Positions 27,374 to 34,407 of a stretch of DNA of 36,791 nt are shown piece by piece. The stretch comes from Gammaproteobacteria bacterium (GTDB taxonomy: Bacteria > Pseudomonadota > Gammaproteobacteria > Chromatiales > Chromatiaceae), in the NCBI GenBank assembly GCA_020445335.1, contig JAGRGU010000122.1, positions 1 to 36,791 of the forward strand, written 5' to 3'. The notes below the pieces were generated by a model. The model searched no databases and was not told the DNA's origin. It was given only the letters and a program-made list of their open reading frames with translations. Each line of letters opens with the position of its first letter. Within the stretch, counting starts at the first letter, position 1. The position numbers and the translations under genes were made by a program.

Positions 27374-28555
27374 ATGGTCCCAGTCTGTCTGATGCTTTCG
27401 AGTCTGCTACAGAATATTCGGCGAAGAGTCTCGGGTTTTACGGATCAGGCCCCGGTCTCGGAAGAGGAGCGTTCACGCTTTTTTCACTATATCTTGTTTC
27501 TTATCCTCGGAATCCCCTGCATGCTGGGATTTGGTGCGCTGAATCTCATACAGGGGGAGCGGGTGGTTTCGCTGCTCGCTTCCGTTTGCGCGATTGCGTT
27601 GGTCACCGGTGTCTTCTATCTGCGTCACAGCGGTAACAGTGGTCTGGTCTACCGCGTCAACGCACTGCTTTATCTCTGCCTGATCGGCTATATGATCGTC
27701 ATAGGCGGTGAGCACGGTTCCAAGTCGCTTTGGGCCTACACGCTGCCGCCGATCACCTGTTTTCTTTTAGGCTATCGGGAGGGTGCACTCTGGGCCTCGC
27801 TGGTTCCCGCAATCGCTGTTCTGACCTATCTGCTGCCGGAACACTTCTTCAGCGGAGTGCATCAGTATCCGCCGGACTTTCAAGTGCGTTTTCTCGTCAC
27901 CTACAGTGTCTGCCTGGTGATCTCCGTGTGGCTGGAGTACTCACGATCCTTCCACTACCGCAAGAGCCAGGACAGAAGCCATAGACTGCAGCTTGAACAT
28001 CAAAATCTGAATCGGGAGATCCAGAAGCGCACACTGCTCGAACAGGAGCTCAGGGAGAGCGCCAGAACGGATCATCTGACGGGTCTGCTCAATCGAGGCG
28101 CTTTTTTCGATCTGGCGGAGCAGGAGCGCAAGAGGCATAAAAGATATGCCAATCCGCTCAGTATGGCGATCATCGACGTAGACCACTTCAAGCGGATAAA
28201 CGACATCTACGGCCATCCGACGGGCGACGCGGTGCTCTGCGCAATCGTGGAGTGCTGTCGTGGCTGTATCAGGGAGGCTGATATTTTCGGTCGTATCGGC
28301 GGTGAGGAGTTCGGCATCGTCATGTCCCAGACCGTATCGGCGGATGCGAAAGATATCGCGGACAGGCTAAGGCGAGGGGTAGAGGCGCTCAGTATCCGTC
28401 ACGGACAGTACGAGATATCGTGCAGCATCAGCATCGGTATTTACACCTCCGGAAACACCGGCGAGGATCTGGATACGATCTATAAACGGGCCGATTCAGC
28501 GCTCTATCGTGCCAAGGGGGGCGGCAGAAACCAGGTCTGCATTCAGACCGTATGA
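27374..28555 (+). CDS. Membrane GGDEF diguanylate cyclase
   Basis: Makes c-di-GMP from two GTP. Residues about 35-195 hold five to six membrane segments of the kind seen in N-terminal membrane sensor domains, followed by a coiled-coil linker (LEHQNLNREIQKRTLLEQELRES). The GGDEF domain starts at RTDHLTGLLNR; active site is GGEEF at 309-313, with the inhibitory-site motif READ (RxxD) at 300-303, five residues before. So it is likely active and product-inhibited. No periplasmic domain of size is visible. ATG 27374 and ATG 27392 (six residues later) are both possible; neither has a good ribosome-binding site. It ends 4 bases from the convergent TPR gene. Confidence 0.92.
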   Translation: MVPVCLMLSSLLQNIRRRVSGFTDQAPVSEEERSRFFHYILFLILGIPCMLGFGALNLIQGERVVSLLASVCAIALVTGVFYLRHSGNSGLVYRVNALLYLCLIGYMIVIGGEHGSKSLWAYTLPPITCFLLGYREGALWASLVPAIAVLTYLLPEHFFSGVHQYPPDFQVRFLVTYSVCLVISVWLEYSRSFHYRKSQDRSHRLQLEHQNLNREIQKRTLLEQELRESARTDHLTGLLNRGAFFDLAEQERKRHKRYANPLSMAIIDVDHFKRINDIYGHPTGDAVLCAIVECCRGCIREADIFGRIGGEEFGIVMSQTVSADAKDIADRLRRGVEALSIRHGQYEISCSISIGIYTSGNTGEDLDTIYKRADSALYRAKGGGRNQVCIQTV

Positions 28556-28559
28556 TCCG

Positions 28560-28877
28560 CTACGACGGCGGCTTCCGCAGCCGTTTGAGAAACACTTCCA
28601 TCTCCTTGACCGCCTGGACGTCGCCTTTCTCTGCTGCGATCGCGATTCCTTTGCGGTAGGCTTCGATCGCCGCTTCGGTACGCCCGAGTAATGTCAGCGT
28701 CTTGGCGTAACTCTTCCAGCTTGCCGAGTGCCCGGGCTCTTGCGCCAGGGCCATTTCCAAATGGATGAGTGCCTGCTCTGGCGACTTCTCCTGTAGGCAG
28801 AGGGTGCCCAGTGTGTAACGGAGCAGCGGGTTGTCTATTCCCCGTGCCAGCATCTGCTCGAGTGCCTTGCGGTCCAT
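28560..28877 (-). CDS. Small TPR (tetratricopeptide repeat) protein
   Basis: A 105-residue protein composed of about two to three TPR helices pairs: NPLLRYTLGTLCLQEKSPEQALIHLEMAL and ASWKSYAKTLTLLGRTEAAIEAYRKGI match the TPR pattern (W-LG-Y-A-F-A-P-like positions). No signal peptide is visible, so it is probably cytoplasmic. TPRs mediate protein contacts; the partner is unknown. A GGACAG lies upstream of ATG 28877. Confidence 0.85.
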   Translation of the reverse strand: MDRKALEQMLARGIDNPLLRYTLGTLCLQEKSPEQALIHLEMALAQEPGHSASWKSYAKTLTLLGRTEAAIEAYRKGIAIAAEKGDVQAVKEMEVFLKRLRKPPS

Positions 28878-29014
28878 TTTTTCTGTCCGGTGTCTGCTAT
28901 TTCAGAAAATTCCTACAAATAACCCTATATCTTTTTTTACCATCCCAAGCATAATAAGCCCCTGGAGCGACAGGGATATTGACAATAAGAGAGGGAGATC
29001 GTCACGGAGGAGCG

Positions 29015-29038
29015 ATGTGCTGCAAAGCATATTATTGA
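29015..29038 (+). CDS. Seven-codon open frame (MCCKAYY) with strong ribosome-binding site
   Basis: ATG TGC TGC AAA GCA TAT TAT TGA follows GGAGGA (29006-29011) at a 3-base spacer, or the earlier GGA at 29006 at a longer one, and the stop is immediately followed by an intrinsic terminator. Such a layout would make it a leader-like or free-standing micro-peptide gene with two Cys and two Tyr. The ORF codons also form a clean hairpin with a GCAA loop, so the frame could be an accident of RNA structure. A reading of TGA as Sec has no support. Confidence 0.28.
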   Translation: MCCKAYY

Positions 29039-29061
29039 CCCGGCAAGAAGCCGGGTTTTTT
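29039..29061 (+). terminator. Intrinsic terminator
   Basis: CCCGGC and GCCGGG form a 6-bp GC stem around AAGAA, followed by six Ts (29056-29061). The minus strand has no T-run after the stem, so orientation is plus. It ends the candidate small RNA / micro-ORF. Confidence 0.85.
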
Positions 29062-29103
29062 ATGCGTGCGACGCTGGCACCAGAAAGCGCATGCTCTCAC
29101 TCC

Positions 29104-30045
29104 CTAGAAATTCTCCTGCTCCACCTCGAGAATGGCCAGGCTGATGTGCCTCCCGATCTGGTCGTCAAAGTTCACCCATCGATTGAAAGGTTCCAGCAAC
29201 GGAACGATTTGCGGCTTCATCTCGAAGTCGCTCAGGTCCTCCTCGTAGAGGCGCTTGACCTCCTGGTAAAGGGTCATCAGGTAGTTCTGGAACGCTTTGG
29301 GCAGCTCGATGCCACCACTCCGGCCGTGTCCGGGAACATAGTGCCGGGTATTAAGCGCGATGGCCGCTTCGCAGGCGGCAATATTGCCTCTGAAGCTGGC
29401 GTCGTCCATGCGCGCGATACGCTCATTGAGGACGTTGTCACCGAGAAACAGTACTGACTCTTCTACGACCTCGATCATAACGTCGGTACCGCTGTGCGCC
29501 TTCTCGGGAGCGTGAAAGCGGAAGCTTACGCCGCCGGTGCGCAACTCCTTCACATTGGCGGTCGAATGTGTCGGGATAATGGCGACAGTTCCTGCGGTGA
29601 AACCCTCCGTCGACCGCAGCATCAGATCCAGCCACTGTTGGGCAACCCCGTTGTGCGCGCGCTCGATCATCAGCGGGTGAGCGTAGAAGAGTGCCCCGGG
29701 ATAGGCGTCGGCGATGGCGTGGTTGCCAAGCCAGTGGTCGCCGTGAACATGGGTGTTGAGTACGTGTGTGACGGGTTTATCGGTGATGGTCTTCAGTTGC
29801 CGCAGAACCATGCGTCCGGCTTGGAGGCTGGAGCCCGGGTCGATCACAACGACACCTTTGGTGGTGATCACGAATCCGGGGTTGTTCATGAACCCCTGGT
29901 TCCCGACCGAGGGAAACCCGAGCGGGCCATGGATGATATAGGTGTTCGGCGCCAGCTGTTCGACCGGGTAGTCGCGAACTGACTCCACTGCCTGCGAAGC
30001 GGGCAGCATGAGCACGAGAATCAGCGATGGCAACCAATAGCGCAT
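29104..30045 (-). CDS. Exported metallo-beta-lactamase-fold hydrolase
   Basis: Predicted periplasmic MBL-fold hydrolase of 313 residues. Residues 1-20 form a signal peptide (cut near ASQA-V). The metal-binding motif is THVHGDHWLGNH (H99, H101, D103, H104, H109), followed by GDNVLNER and YVPGHGRSGG, as in the SoxH and quinoprotein-relay-like branches of the superfamily. Substrate is unknown. ATG 30045 is preferred over GTG 30051 because GGAGG lies 5 bases upstream of the ATG but abuts the GTG. It diverges from the HDOD gene. Confidence 0.88.
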   Translation of the reverse strand: MRYWLPSLILVLMLPASQAVESVRDYPVEQLAPNTYIIHGPLGFPSVGNQGFMNNPGFVITTKGVVVIDPGSSLQAGRMVLRQLKTITDKPVTHVLNTHVHGDHWLGNHAIADAYPGALFYAHPLMIERAHNGVAQQWLDLMLRSTEGFTAGTVAIIPTHSTANVKELRTGGVSFRFHAPEKAHSGTDVMIEVVEESVLFLGDNVLNERIARMDDASFRGNIAACEAAIALNTRHYVPGHGRSGGIELPKAFQNYLMTLYQEVKRLYEEDLSDFEMKPQIVPLLEPFNRWVNFDDQIGRHISLAILEVEQENF

Positions 30046-30108
30046 AGACACCTCCGGCAGGAACGTGGCGAACAGGCGATTCGGGATCCCAGTGTAACGA
30101 AGAAATCG

Positions 30109-31083
30109 GTGTCTGACGAACCTTCCCGGTGGCCGTCGACTGAGCGCCTCCGGTTACTTGAATTGGTGGCAGAACGCGCTCAACATAATGTCATATCGAT
30201 CATCGAGAAGAGATTGATGAGGATGGACAGGGAGAGCATTCCCTACATAGTAAATCTGGCAGGAGAGCTCTATTCGCTGCCCGATATCTGTCTGCAGCTG
30301 CGCTATCTGTCGAATCAGCCGACTGCGTCCGCCGAAGAGATGGCACGTCTGATCGCGACAGATCCGGCGTTGACCGCGCGCTTGCTGAAGCTGGCGAACA
30401 GCGCCTACTACGGGTTTCCCGCAACCGTCTCCACGGTCAGTCGTGCAATCACGCTGATCGGCGTGCGCGAGATGAACGATCTTGCTTTTGCCACTTCCGC
30501 CGCCAGCCTGTTCAAGGGTGCGGGTGGCGAGTTGATCGATATCAGCCAGTTCTGGTCGCAGAGCGTCCACACCGCAATTTGGGCCAAGGGAGTGGCGCGA
30601 CAGCTGGCGGGGCAGGAGGGTGAGCAGCTCTTCGTGGCCGGATTGCTGCACAACATCGGCAAACTGGTGATGCTGGAGCAGAGTCCGTCGGTGGCTGCAG
30701 CTGCCTGTTATCGGGACGATGAGACCGCGCCAGAATGGCGGCGCGAACAGCAGGTGATGGGATTTACCTTCGCCGAAGTGGGCGGCGCCCTGCTGGCGGC
30801 CTGGGGGTTGCCCGAGGCGCTCTCCGAACCTGTGCGGCAAAAGCATTTGCCGTCGCAGGCCGGCGATCATGCACAGGCAGCTGCTATACTGCATGTCGCC
30901 GATAAGTTTTCGGCGGCAACCGTTGCCGCTCGGGATCAGAATCACAGGGTCGAAGTGGAGGCGCTTCTTCCCGCAATCGATCCAGGCATTCAACGGTTCC
31001 TGGGAATACGAAGTGAGCAACTGGAGATGCTAAGCGAGTGGGTGACGCAGAGTGCCCCGGAAGTATTGAGAATAATCGTATAG
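30109..31083 (+). CDS. HDOD domain protein
   Basis: A 324-residue protein with an HDOD domain (about residues 45-250), an HD-like fold lacking most catalytic metal residues. Evidence: LSNQPTASAEEMARLIATDPALTARLLKLANSAYYG, STVSRAITLIGVREMNDL and FVAGLLHNIGKLVM. HDOD proteins typically act as signalling adaptors rather than phosphodiesterases. The start is GTG 30109, with no good ribosome-binding site. It is 10 bases before the REC-HD-GYP gene, so the two form an operon, and the convergent histidine kinase gene suggests a common signalling set. Confidence 0.9.
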   Translation: MSDEPSRWPSTERLRLLELVAERAQHNVISIIEKRLMRMDRESIPYIVNLAGELYSLPDICLQLRYLSNQPTASAEEMARLIATDPALTARLLKLANSAYYGFPATVSTVSRAITLIGVREMNDLAFATSAASLFKGAGGELIDISQFWSQSVHTAIWAKGVARQLAGQEGEQLFVAGLLHNIGKLVMLEQSPSVAAAACYRDDETAPEWRREQQVMGFTFAEVGGALLAAWGLPEALSEPVRQKHLPSQAGDHAQAAAILHVADKFSAATVAARDQNHRVEVEALLPAIDPGIQRFLGIRSEQLEMLSEWVTQSAPEVLRIIV

Positions 31084-31093
31084 GTGAAAACCG

Positions 31094-32617
31094 ATGGGGC
31101 AGCCGCTAAAACTCAAAGACAAACCCACCAAGGCGCCCGAAGATCAGAACAATCCCTGGCGGGTATTGATTGTCGACGACGAAGAGGAGGTTCACAGGGT
31201 CACGCTGCTGGCGTTGAAGCACTTCGAATTCGATGGCAGGGGGCTCTGGTTTCTGCATGCCCACTCCGCCGCCGAGGCTCGCGAGATAATGCTCACCGAA
31301 GGGGACATCGCGGTGGTGCTGCTGGATGTCGTGATGGAGACGGATCACGCCGGGTTGGGGCTGATAGGCTTCATTCGTAGCGAGATCGAAAATCATTCGA
31401 CCCGCATCGTACTGCGCACCGGACAACCTGGACAGGCTCCGGAACACAAGGTCATCAAAGAGTACGACATCAATGACTACAAGGATAAAACCGAACTCAC
31501 TGCCACCAAGCTGTTCACGCTGCTGATCTCTTGTCTGCGGGCCTATCGCGATATCTGTACACTGAACCGCAGTAAGAAAGGGTTGGAGAAGCTCATTCTG
31601 GCATCGCGCGGTATCTCCTCCCGCCAGGAGCTGGGGAGCTTCGTCAACATAACGCTGCACCAGCTCGTCACGTTGTTGAATCTCGATGATGCGGAGATTT
31701 TCAGCTGTGAAACCGAAGCCTTCCGGGTCGATCGTGATGAGGTTCTGCAATACTCGTTCGACGAGGATATCGCCAAGACGCAGAAGATCCTGATGTCGGA
31801 GATGCTCGCTGAGAAGCGCGCAGTACTTCGCCAGGTGCTGCAGAATCGAACCAATGTCTACCAGGGGAACTTTCTCGGAATCTACTGCGCCAGCAAGCAT
31901 ATAGTGCTGATCTTTTACGCCAGGACCGACAGCCCGTTGTCGAGTCTCGATATTCACCTGCTGAATACCTTCACCGAGAATCTGGTGGTCGTACTTGAGA
32001 ATATCCGCCTCAATGAAGTCATCACCGAAAGCCAGCGGGAGATGATCTACCGCCTGGGTGAAGTGGTGGAGACCCGCTCGAACGAGACCGGAAATCACGT
32101 TAAGCGTGTCGCCCACTACTCCGAGATTCTCGCCAGGTTGGCAGGCTTGAACGAGGAAGAGGCGACGCTGATCAAGTTCGCCTCTCCGCTACACGACATT
32201 GGGAAAATAGGCGTTGCCGACGCTATTCTGAATAAACAGGGCAGGCTCACGGCGGACGAGCGCGATCTGATGGAGAACCATACCAGCATCGGGTATTCGA
32301 TTCTCAAGGGTTCAGGTCTGATTCTGATGGATGTCGGTGCCATTATCGCCCGAGATCATCACGAGAACTGGGATGGCAGCGGCTATCCCAAAGGGAAGCG
32401 CCGCGAAGAGATTCATATCCACGGCCGGATAACGGCGCTTGCCGACGTCTTCGATGCGCTCTGCAGCGAACGCTGCTACAAAGAGCCCTGGCCCGATGAG
32501 CGGGTCAAGGAGTACATATCCGAACAGAGCGGTTCCAAGTTCGATCCGCGGCTTGCTCAGCTCTTTCTGGATAATTTCGACCGGTTTGTCACGATAAGGG
32601 ATTGCTTCAGCGACTGA
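31094..32617 (+). CDS. Response regulator with DUF3369 and HD-GYP domains (c-di-GMP phosphodiesterase type)
   Basis: Receiver domain (about residues 22-145) with acidic pair D28-D29, phospho-acceptor D78 in VVLLDVVME and a Lys near YKDKTEL; then a DUF3369 domain (about 160-310); then HD-GYP (about 320-500). The HD-GYP signature is SPLHDIGKIGV (H367, D368) and HHENWDGSGYP (H422-H423, and GYP 430-432), so c-di-GMP hydrolysis is likely active. The 507-residue length is normal for the REC-DUF3369-HD-GYP type. AGGTG lies upstream of ATG 31094. It follows an HDOD gene and faces a histidine kinase gene across 104 bases. Confidence 0.94.
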   Translation: MGQPLKLKDKPTKAPEDQNNPWRVLIVDDEEEVHRVTLLALKHFEFDGRGLWFLHAHSAAEAREIMLTEGDIAVVLLDVVMETDHAGLGLIGFIRSEIENHSTRIVLRTGQPGQAPEHKVIKEYDINDYKDKTELTATKLFTLLISCLRAYRDICTLNRSKKGLEKLILASRGISSRQELGSFVNITLHQLVTLLNLDDAEIFSCETEAFRVDRDEVLQYSFDEDIAKTQKILMSEMLAEKRAVLRQVLQNRTNVYQGNFLGIYCASKHIVLIFYARTDSPLSSLDIHLLNTFTENLVVVLENIRLNEVITESQREMIYRLGEVVETRSNETGNHVKRVAHYSEILARLAGLNEEEATLIKFASPLHDIGKIGVADAILNKQGRLTADERDLMENHTSIGYSILKGSGLILMDVGAIIARDHHENWDGSGYPKGKRREEIHIHGRITALADVFDALCSERCYKEPWPDERVKEYISEQSGSKFDPRLAQLFLDNFDRFVTIRDCFSD

Positions 32618-32721
32618 AGCGCGGAGTGTTTCAAGCTTGTCACCGGGCTGCCCATTCTTGCGCTATCGAGGATTCAAACGCAGACAGACGCACAGCCGGC
32701 TTTATGGAGCGGGTGTTACCG

Positions 32722-34407
32722 TCACTCTTCCGTCGCTCCGGGATTCAGTGGCAGTCTGATTTCGAATCTGACTCCATGGCCGGGAGAGGAGCTGCTCTGC
32801 AGAGATCCCTGTAAAGTCTCGGTGACCAGATTGTAGAGAATATTCATGCCGAGGCCGGTACCGCCGGCTCCACGCTTGGTGGTGTAGAAGGGTTCGAATA
32901 TCTTCTTCAGCTGCTCCTTGTCCATTCCCTTGCCATCGTCCTGATAAATGAAGCGCGCGTGCTGTGCGTCGGTTTCGAGTGTGATCCGGATGTTACCGTT
33001 ATCCATCCCTTCGAAGCCGTGAATCAGGGAGTTCATCACCAAATTGGTGATGATCTGCGAGACGGCACCCGGGTAGGAGAACATTTTGATCTCCTGATCT
33101 CCCTCTATATGCACCTGATGCCCGGTCTTTCTGATCCTCGGGTTGAGGCTGAGCAGCACCTCCCTGACGTAAGAGCCAAGTTCGAACAGCCTCCGCTCGG
33201 AGGTTGTCTGGTCAACCGCAATCTGCTTGAAGCTCTTGATCAGCTCCGCAGCACGATTCAGGTTGGCGTAGATCATCGATGAAGCCTGGTCCGCGTCCGC
33301 CAGATACTCTTCCAGCTCCTGCGCCGAGAGTTGCTCCTCCGAATAGAGCCGTTGGATCGATCGGGTCGTGTCGCGCAGATGTGTCGCCGCCGTGATGCTG
33401 ATTCCAACCGGTGTGTTGATCTCGTGTGAAACTCCGGCAACCAGGCCACCGAGCGCGGCGAGTTTCTCCGACTGTTGCAGCTTCTCCTGGGTGCTGCGCA
33501 GTTCGGTTACATCCGTGCCGGATCCCCGGTAGCCCGAGAACTGCGCCTTGGCATCGAACATCGGTACCCCCGAACTCCGCACGACCATGGTGGTGCCATC
33601 CTTCAGCAACAGCGGATACTCGAAGTTGCGAATCCCCCGGTGCTGGATCATGGTCTGCTCGTTACTCTCGAGCTCGGAGGAAGCTTTCGCCGAACCGTAG
33701 ATGGCGACCAATTCCTTGCGGCTTTTTCCCAGTACCTCTTCCGGCGTGAAGCCGCTGAGCTGAAAGAAGCGTGATGAAATGTAGGTGAAGCGTAGATCGC
33801 CGTTCATCTCCCAGAACCAGTCGCTGGAGGAGAGGGCGATATCACGCACCCTCTGTTCGGCCAGTTTTCTCTCGGCCACTTCCCGTCGCAACTCTTCGGT
33901 ACGGGCATCCACCATCTCCTCGAGGTGCTCCTGGTGCTGTTTCAGCTCCTCGGTACGCCGTGCCACCTCCTCCTCGAGATGCTCTCGATAGAGCGTGTTG
34001 GCGCGCAGCAGATCGGCCCGTTCCAGCGCCGACTCGACGGCATGCCTCAGCACGTGCATATCCGGTATCGGTTTGACCAGATAGTCCCAGGCGCCAAGCC
34101 GCAGCGCTTCGACCACCTCTCGTACGCCAGAGGTACCTGAAACGACGATGACCGGAGTGTCGTGCGTCAGTTTGTTGACCTCACGCAAGACCTCGAGCCC
34201 GTTCATCTTCGGCATGCGGATATCTATCAACAGCAGGTCGGGCTGTTTCTGCTTGAACAGCTCGAGCCCGGCACGACCGTCATCCGCCTCGTATACGATG
34301 TAGTCGAGGTCTTCAAGGTAGTCCCGAAAGCTGTGGCGAATCGTCGATTCGTCTTCGATCGTCAGGATACTTTTGCGATTGGCATGGCTGCTGGTGGCAA
34401 TACTCAT
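32722..34407 (-). CDS. Histidine kinase with N-terminal receiver and PAS domains (hybrid-type)
   Basis: Domain order: receiver (about residues 14-130, phospho-acceptor D62 in LLLIDIRMP, K112), coiled coil (about 130-185), PAS (about 195-305), then a HisKA-like H-box GLVAGVSHEINTPVG with H328, and an HATPase with N-box TNLVMNSLIHGF, G1 DDGKGM and the FEPFYTTKRGAGGTGLGM region. It has no transmembrane segment, so it is probably a soluble kinase. A receiver placed N-terminally suggests it takes input from another phosphorelay. It converges on the REC-HD-GYP gene, and the pair may form a system; this is inference. A TATAAT with an 18-bp palindrome lies upstream. Confidence 0.93.
   Translation of the reverse strand: MSIATSSHANRKSILTIEDESTIRHSFRDYLEDLDYIVYEADDGRAGLELFKQKQPDLLLIDIRMPKMNGLEVLREVNKLTHDTPVIVVSGTSGVREVVEALRLGAWDYLVKPIPDMHVLRHAVESALERADLLRANTLYREHLEEEVARRTEELKQHQEHLEEMVDARTEELRREVAERKLAEQRVRDIALSSSDWFWEMNGDLRFTYISSRFFQLSGFTPEEVLGKSRKELVAIYGSAKASSELESNEQTMIQHRGIRNFEYPLLLKDGTTMVVRSSGVPMFDAKAQFSGYRGSGTDVTELRSTQEKLQQSEKLAALGGLVAGVSHEINTPVGISITAATHLRDTTRSIQRLYSEEQLSAQELEEYLADADQASSMIYANLNRAAELIKSFKQIAVDQTTSERRLFELGSYVREVLLSLNPRIRKTGHQVHIEGDQEIKMFSYPGAVSQIITNLVMNSLIHGFEGMDNGNIRITLETDAQHARFIYQDDGKGMDKEQLKKIFEPFYTTKRGAGGTGLGMNILYNLVTETLQGSLQSSSSPGHGVRFEIRLPLNPGATEE

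Follow-up and report, generated by a model that had tools for sequence, protein, structure and literature searches.

A probable CsrA-sequestering small RNA gene with repeated GGA motifs, conserved in two species of an uncultured genus of the Chromatiaceae

Positions 28949-29062 of the window, i.e. the whole 36,791-nucleotide stretch of DNA analysed here, form a conserved unit that extends from a -10-like box to an intrinsic terminator and is present in two species of the genus. Based on the comparison of the two sequences, we suggest that this unit is probably a gene for a small RNA (sRNA) of ~100 nt, which is predicted to show several GGA sites and to sequester CsrA from its mRNA targets. In this model, phosphorylated GacA would switch the sRNA gene on, a ~100-nt RNA would be transcribed from the plus strand, and CsrA would be bound by this RNA at several GGA sites. 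As a result, CsrA would be sequestered and CsrA-repressed mRNAs would be freed, which would be the role of the sRNA. We consider the element as likely real and of an ordinary kind, in an uncultured lineage. Outside model organisms, Csr/Rsm sRNAs are difficult to detect because so little of their sequence is conserved; if correct, the model provides a candidate CsrA sponge for an uncultured genus together with a box for finding others in the family.

The features of the locus are as follows, with G000 designating the source genome of the window, G001 the relative from the same genus, and G002 and higher numbers other genomes compared.

28560-28877, minus strand: gene for a small TPR protein, the divergent neighbour in G000 and G001 (70% identical)
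28900-28918, plus strand: GacA-box-like palindrome TTTCAGAAAATTCCTACAA, starting 49 bases before the -10-like box
28949-28956, plus strand: -10-like box GCATAATA, identical in G001
28960-29062, plus strand: predicted sRNA gene, ~100 nt; alignment z 7.8 for the body vs 1.5 and -1.9 for the flanks, folding z -4.2
28964-28966, plus strand: GGA 1 (CTGGAGC), GGA aligned in G001
28974-28976, plus strand: GGA 2, in ACAGGGATAT, GGA aligned in G001
28994-28996, plus strand: GGA 3 (GAGGGAG), mostly unpaired in G000, aligned in G001
28998-29016, plus strand: hairpin H1, ATCGT/GCGAT with the 9-base loop CACGGAGGA, 5 of 5 pairs kept in G001
29009-29011, plus strand: fifth GGA, inside an SD-like GGAGGA, TGA in G001
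29015-29038, plus strand: open reading frame MCCKAYY (ATG TGC TGC AAA GCA TAT TAT TGA) with the SD-like GGAGGA upstream, not conserved in G001
29017-29030, plus strand: hairpin H2, GTGCT/AGCAT with loop GCAA, 5 of 5 pairs kept with one double-sided change in G001
29037-29061, plus strand: intrinsic terminator, stem GACCCGGC/GCCGGGTT followed by a T-run, stem identical in G001
29104-30051, minus strand: gene for a metallo-beta-lactamase-fold (MBL) protein, bounding the gap on the far side

The initial annotation had placed a plus-strand unit in a 226-base gap between two minus-strand genes, and the coordinates bear this out: the gap comprises 28878-29103 and the ORFs 28560-28877 and 29104-30051 flank it. 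In a DNA search of 55 genomes, 28988-29076 matched G001 with 71% identity (E 0.0027), G001 being one of the two genomes of the genus besides G000. Two other matches scored better, one to the terminator in G017 (E 2.9e-4) and one to the palindrome in G007 (E 0.0017). The unit in G001 adjoins the ortholog of the same TPR gene, and five other ORFs of the window have matches within 16 kb around this locus. Of the 79 ungapped columns between the -10-like box and the terminator, 50 are identical, an alignment that none of 2000 shuffles equalled, while the upstream 71 bases were equalled by 182 of 2000 shuffles and the downstream 40 bases align no better than chance would have it (z -1.9). The MBL gene is absent from the G001 locus, where the next ORF encodes a convergent DUF2971 protein, and the idea that the MBL neighbour is a functional partner of the unit was therefore dropped. 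The gene arrangement also bears on the possibility that the unit belongs to a downstream gene as its leader or attenuator, or is a mere terminator for the flanking genes. A short ORF immediately before a terminator does look attenuator-like; however, the neighbours with family matches are on the minus strand on both sides, the DUF2971 ORF in G001 is convergent as well, and a mere terminator would leave the conservation of the unit's body unexplained. We therefore regard this explanation as very unlikely.

A Csr/Rsm sRNA gene is recognized by being a stand-alone intergenic gene with its own intrinsic terminator and its own promoter, by several GGA motifs in the RNA, and by the presence of CsrA in the same genome. 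The unit stands alone in its gap and ends in a strong terminator of its own, with a stem (29037-29057) of 8 pairs, 6 of them GC, followed by a run of six T. As the initial annotation had stated, this terminator starts just past the stop of the short ORF: its CCCGGC arm begins at 29039, directly behind the stop codon. At the other end, transcription is predicted to start at about 28960-28964. A consensus scan of 28000-30000 detected no sigma-70-type promoter and no -35 consensus; the candidate promoter element is GCATAATA, kept in G001 and without a sigma-70 consensus pair.

Five plus-strand GGA triplets had been reported, and we located them at 28964, 28974, 28994, 29006 and 29009; four of them are aligned in G001. 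According to passages of PMC7652899, CsrA recognizes GGA, preferentially in hairpin loops, and its SELEX consensus is RUACARGGAUGU; sequestration needs several GGA motifs, as described in part of PMC2375449. ACAGGGATAT (28970-28979) agrees with the ACARGGAUGU core of this consensus at 9 of 10 positions, two of its bases being paired in the G000 fold, and CACGGAGG is at 29003-29010. The claim that one GGA lies within a hairpin loop holds for GGA 4 (29006-29008), which sits in the loop of H1 and is unpaired in the folds of both genomes (0.79-0.88 in G000, 0.99-1.0 in G001). GGA 3 and 5 are mostly unpaired in G000, and GGA 2 (in G000) and GGA 1 (in G001) are largely paired. The four conserved triplets align base for base, with a P of 0.0024 for 12 of 12 bases at an identity of 50/79. 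The number of triplets as such is not extreme for the composition: five GGA occur in 13% of dinucleotide shuffles, while three ANGGA occur in 5.7% and two (A/C)A(G/C)GGA in 0.9%. Jointly, five GGA and three ANGGA are found in 0.17% of the plus-strand and 0.04% of the minus-strand 77-base stretches of the window.

The RNA of 28960-29064 is predicted to fold at -34.3 kcal/mol, compared to -22.65 (sd 2.78) for shuffled sequences (z -4.19; 0 of 200 as good), part of this stability being owed to the terminator. The G001 RNA also folds better than its shuffles (z -2.36; 2 of 200 as good). Four hairpins in a row had been proposed for this RNA. H1 and H2 are kept in G001, but G001 has not retained the first hairpin (CCCTG/CAGGG, 28960-28975), which may start before the transcript does. 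H1 is absent from the minimum-energy fold of G000; enforcing H1, H2 and the terminator together is penalized by 1.5 kcal/mol in G000 and by 1.9 kcal/mol in G001. In G001, H1 carries two double-sided changes and one one-sided change, and its loop reads CAGGGATGA. H2 follows directly after H1, and its loop GCAA at 29022-29025 confirms the earlier description of a GNRA loop in a hairpin that overlaps the ORF codons. Altogether, 10 of 10 pairs of H1 and H2 are standard in G001, with three double-sided changes and one one-sided change. All ten pairs survive in 3.6% of cases when the differing letters are redistributed at random, versions slid along the alignment pair at 24-44%, and 67 of 500 shuffles reach the observed level of covariation, in each case with two sequences. 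Thus, the compensating changes support H1 and H2, but coming from two sequences they are only suggestive.

A stand-alone sRNA could also be of the Hfq type, base-pairing with mRNAs, in which case the GGA triplets would be incidental. The conservation of the unit, its strong terminator with the six-T run, and the fact that the GGA count alone is matched by 13% of composition-matched shuffles all fit with this possibility. However, every base of four GGA is conserved, one of them in the loop of a hairpin with compensating changes, and the alignment of G000 with G001 does not reveal a long invariant seed outside the promoter, the GGA triplets and the terminator. In addition, GGA-rich units in three other genomes among the matches listed have the same kind of upstream palindrome as the unit, as described below. 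We consider an Hfq-type sRNA unlikely.

The initial annotation had left two readings in competition, a CsrA/RsmA-titrating sRNA and a free-standing micro-peptide with a ribosome-binding site in a hairpin loop. The sRNA reading is favored because G001 keeps the GGA triplets, H1, H2 and the terminator, and loses the ORF. For MCCKAYY as the functional product, it speaks that GGAGGA in the H1 loop is well placed before the ATG, that this is the only ATG ORF of 1-12 codons behind a GGAGG site on either strand of the window, and that its stop codon abuts the terminator; with a looser site (GGAG, GAGG or AGGA), the window has six such cases. A conserved micro-peptide is expected to keep its reading frame in relatives, and codon conservation, a check suggested in the initial annotation, speaks against it: in G001, the ATG is an AAG and a one-base deletion lies in the would-be codons, so that both start and frame are lost. 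The G001 unit has no aligned counterpart: a 12-codon ATG ORF, MDTQNRKGLWQG, lies further upstream and a second ATG ORF runs on through the terminator, but neither of them aligns with MCCKAYY. Moreover, the H2 stem varies by compensation at positions where the codons would need conserving. A search with the peptide pattern (at most 2 mismatches) gave hits in 2 of 55 genomes, G000 and a single G002 match without the context of the unit, and hence no further case. A glutathionylspermidine-synthase-like ATP-grasp ligase, one of ten neighbouring proteins scanned and located 3.3 kb off, is also encoded in the vicinity of the G001 locus, and this locus lacks the peptide. The literature searched did not yield the peptide MCCKAYY either. 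A functional heptapeptide gene is therefore highly improbable, and the micro-gene, i.e. the striking part of the observation, is not supported by the comparison, although MCCKAYY may be translated in this one species as a species-private peptide.

One variant would combine the two readings in a dual-function RNA. Here, a CsrA sponge would have gained, in this one species, a translated heptapeptide, with the CsrA-binding loop itself serving as the ribosome-binding site; ribosomes and CsrA would compete for H1, and translation would open the sponge; we see this as a long shot. Heptapeptide genes do exist, as exemplified by mccA of microcin C7. The unit has a seven-codon ORF in common with it; MCCKAYY is, however, a different peptide and its ORF is not conserved. 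If the sRNA reading is right, the locus illustrates that a CsrA site can produce, as a by-product, a tempting micro-ORF complete with a good ribosome-binding site.

Returning to the CsrA-sequestering sRNA, the source genome has one CsrA match, and this protein has L4 and R44, the residues named for CsrA in passages of PMC7652899. CsrA is found in 25 of 28 genomes, the source genome included. The GacA candidate is a response regulator that scores 278.7-279.1 bits against the UvrY/SirA/GacA model, which has a cut-off of 280; its gene is followed by UDG and UvrC-domain ORFs, as in a gacA-uvrC locus.

The CsrA-sequestering reading is strengthened by a GacA-box-like palindrome upstream of the unit. 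Short matches of several genomes to 28896-28921 in the 55-genome DNA search led to this box. On its other strand, TTTCAGAAAATTCCTACAA has the format of a GacA box and differs from TGTAAG-N6-CTTACA at 3 of 12 fixed bases; for comparison, the rsmY box of P. fluorescens is given as TGTAAGCATTCTCTTACA in part of PMC4353343. Within 500 upstream bases on the same strand, the best match in G001 differs at 5 of 19 positions and also lies 49 bases before the -10 box, and a box match of this kind at spacings 47-49 has a P of 5e-5 in 20000 shuffles. With one mismatch allowed, TGTAAG-N6-CTTACA is found in neither G000 nor G001. The same search gave four hits at two palindromic places in G002 without a GGA-rich, terminator-ended unit, and matches to its reversed control pattern were obtained in both G000 and G002.

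To place the box in the family, 12 stretches from other genomes and the earlier locus L009 were considered among the matches listed, which gave eight places with 0-2 mismatches. Among these matches, 3 of the 8 places (in G002, G003 and G021, with 1-2 mismatches) are followed by GGA-rich units. Within 180 bases behind the box, these units have 4, 6 and 4 ANGGA, respectively, again among the matches listed. Against a background of 0.8% for at least 4 ANGGA in 180 bases, the binomial probability of 3 in 8 among the matches listed is 2.5e-5. Each of the three units lies divergently to a Tyr_Deacylase (PF02580) gene. Two of them end in a terminator, and in G002 the contig stops first. The other 5 of 8 places among the matches listed have no GGA-rich unit, and three of these carry the window's 19-base box without any mismatch, one in G007 (L157) and two in G013 (L148 and L009). 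We therefore treat the box as a marker of GGA-rich units in the sense of a lead with support, among the matches listed. The loci L155 (G003), L156 (G021) and L152 (G002) are themselves candidate Csr/Rsm sRNAs of the family behind a GacA-box-like palindrome.

The unit itself was found in this genus only. Rfam gave no gathering match in the gap, and at E <=5 only unrelated families in G000 and G001. A TPR match is present in 76 of 194 genomes; 30 of these loci were read by eye over up to 450 upstream bases, and besides the source genome only G001 has the unit. Four of nine further loci were read, with the unit in one, which is the same record as G001. Another relative of the TPR protein (P0002, 84% identical) is encoded on a contig of 7.1 kb. 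In G002, the unit was not found: the best DNA match covers 23 bases on the terminator and there is no TPR match at 1e-15. Under stricter filters, the model R1 retrieved G000, G001 and contig C5 of G002 (E 0.058) from 210 family genomes; the last match was rejected, as its strand has two GGA and its stem is not followed by a T-run. A promoter-plus-GGA pattern matched G000 and G001 only among 38 genomes, and BLAST against plasmids and E. coli genomes gave no match. On the same G002 contig, the locus L136 (minus strand, ~1503-1613) has six GGA before an ACCCGGC/GCCGGGT terminator, on the same strand and behind an alpha/beta-hydrolase gene. It has no counterpart in G000 or G001, and three other matches in the 55 genomes are on its 3' end.

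In Pseudomonas, the GacA-controlled sRNAs RsmX, RsmY and RsmZ bind RsmA/CsrA. The unit described here resembles them in its similar length (an rsmX-2 of 110 nt has been named), intergenic position, several GGA motifs and intrinsic terminator, as well as in the presence of csrA and a candidate gacA in the genome and of a palindrome in GacA-box format upstream. It differs in that it has no Rfam match, in the three deviating bases of its box, in its locus, and in having been seen only in two species of one genus. The Tyr_Deacylase-side units of G002, G003 and G021 share the same kind of box, the ANGGA repeats and, in 2 of 3, the terminator, but differ from it in locus and sequence. For the G003 unit, RsmY gives a weak match with 19.1 bits, below the threshold of 57 (E 0.31). 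With CsrB and CsrC of Escherichia coli, the unit would share its predicted mode of action, i.e. repeated GGA sites that sequester CsrA. In comparison with the 22 and 14 GGA of CsrB and CsrC, respectively (passages of PMC11882849), its 4-5 GGA are modest, and there is no sequence match. The same passages describe Csr sRNAs as usually lacking sequence conservation.

Two observations concern the surrounding genes. The MBL-fold protein is related to the quinoprotein relay zinc metallohydrolases TIGR04559 and TIGR04558, with scores below the cut-offs, and has a relative at E <=1e-30 in 78 of 194 family genomes. Finally, the unit is surrounded by signalling genes (27374-34407), which code for a diguanylate cyclase, an HDOD protein, a DUF3369/HD response regulator and a PAS response-regulator kinase.
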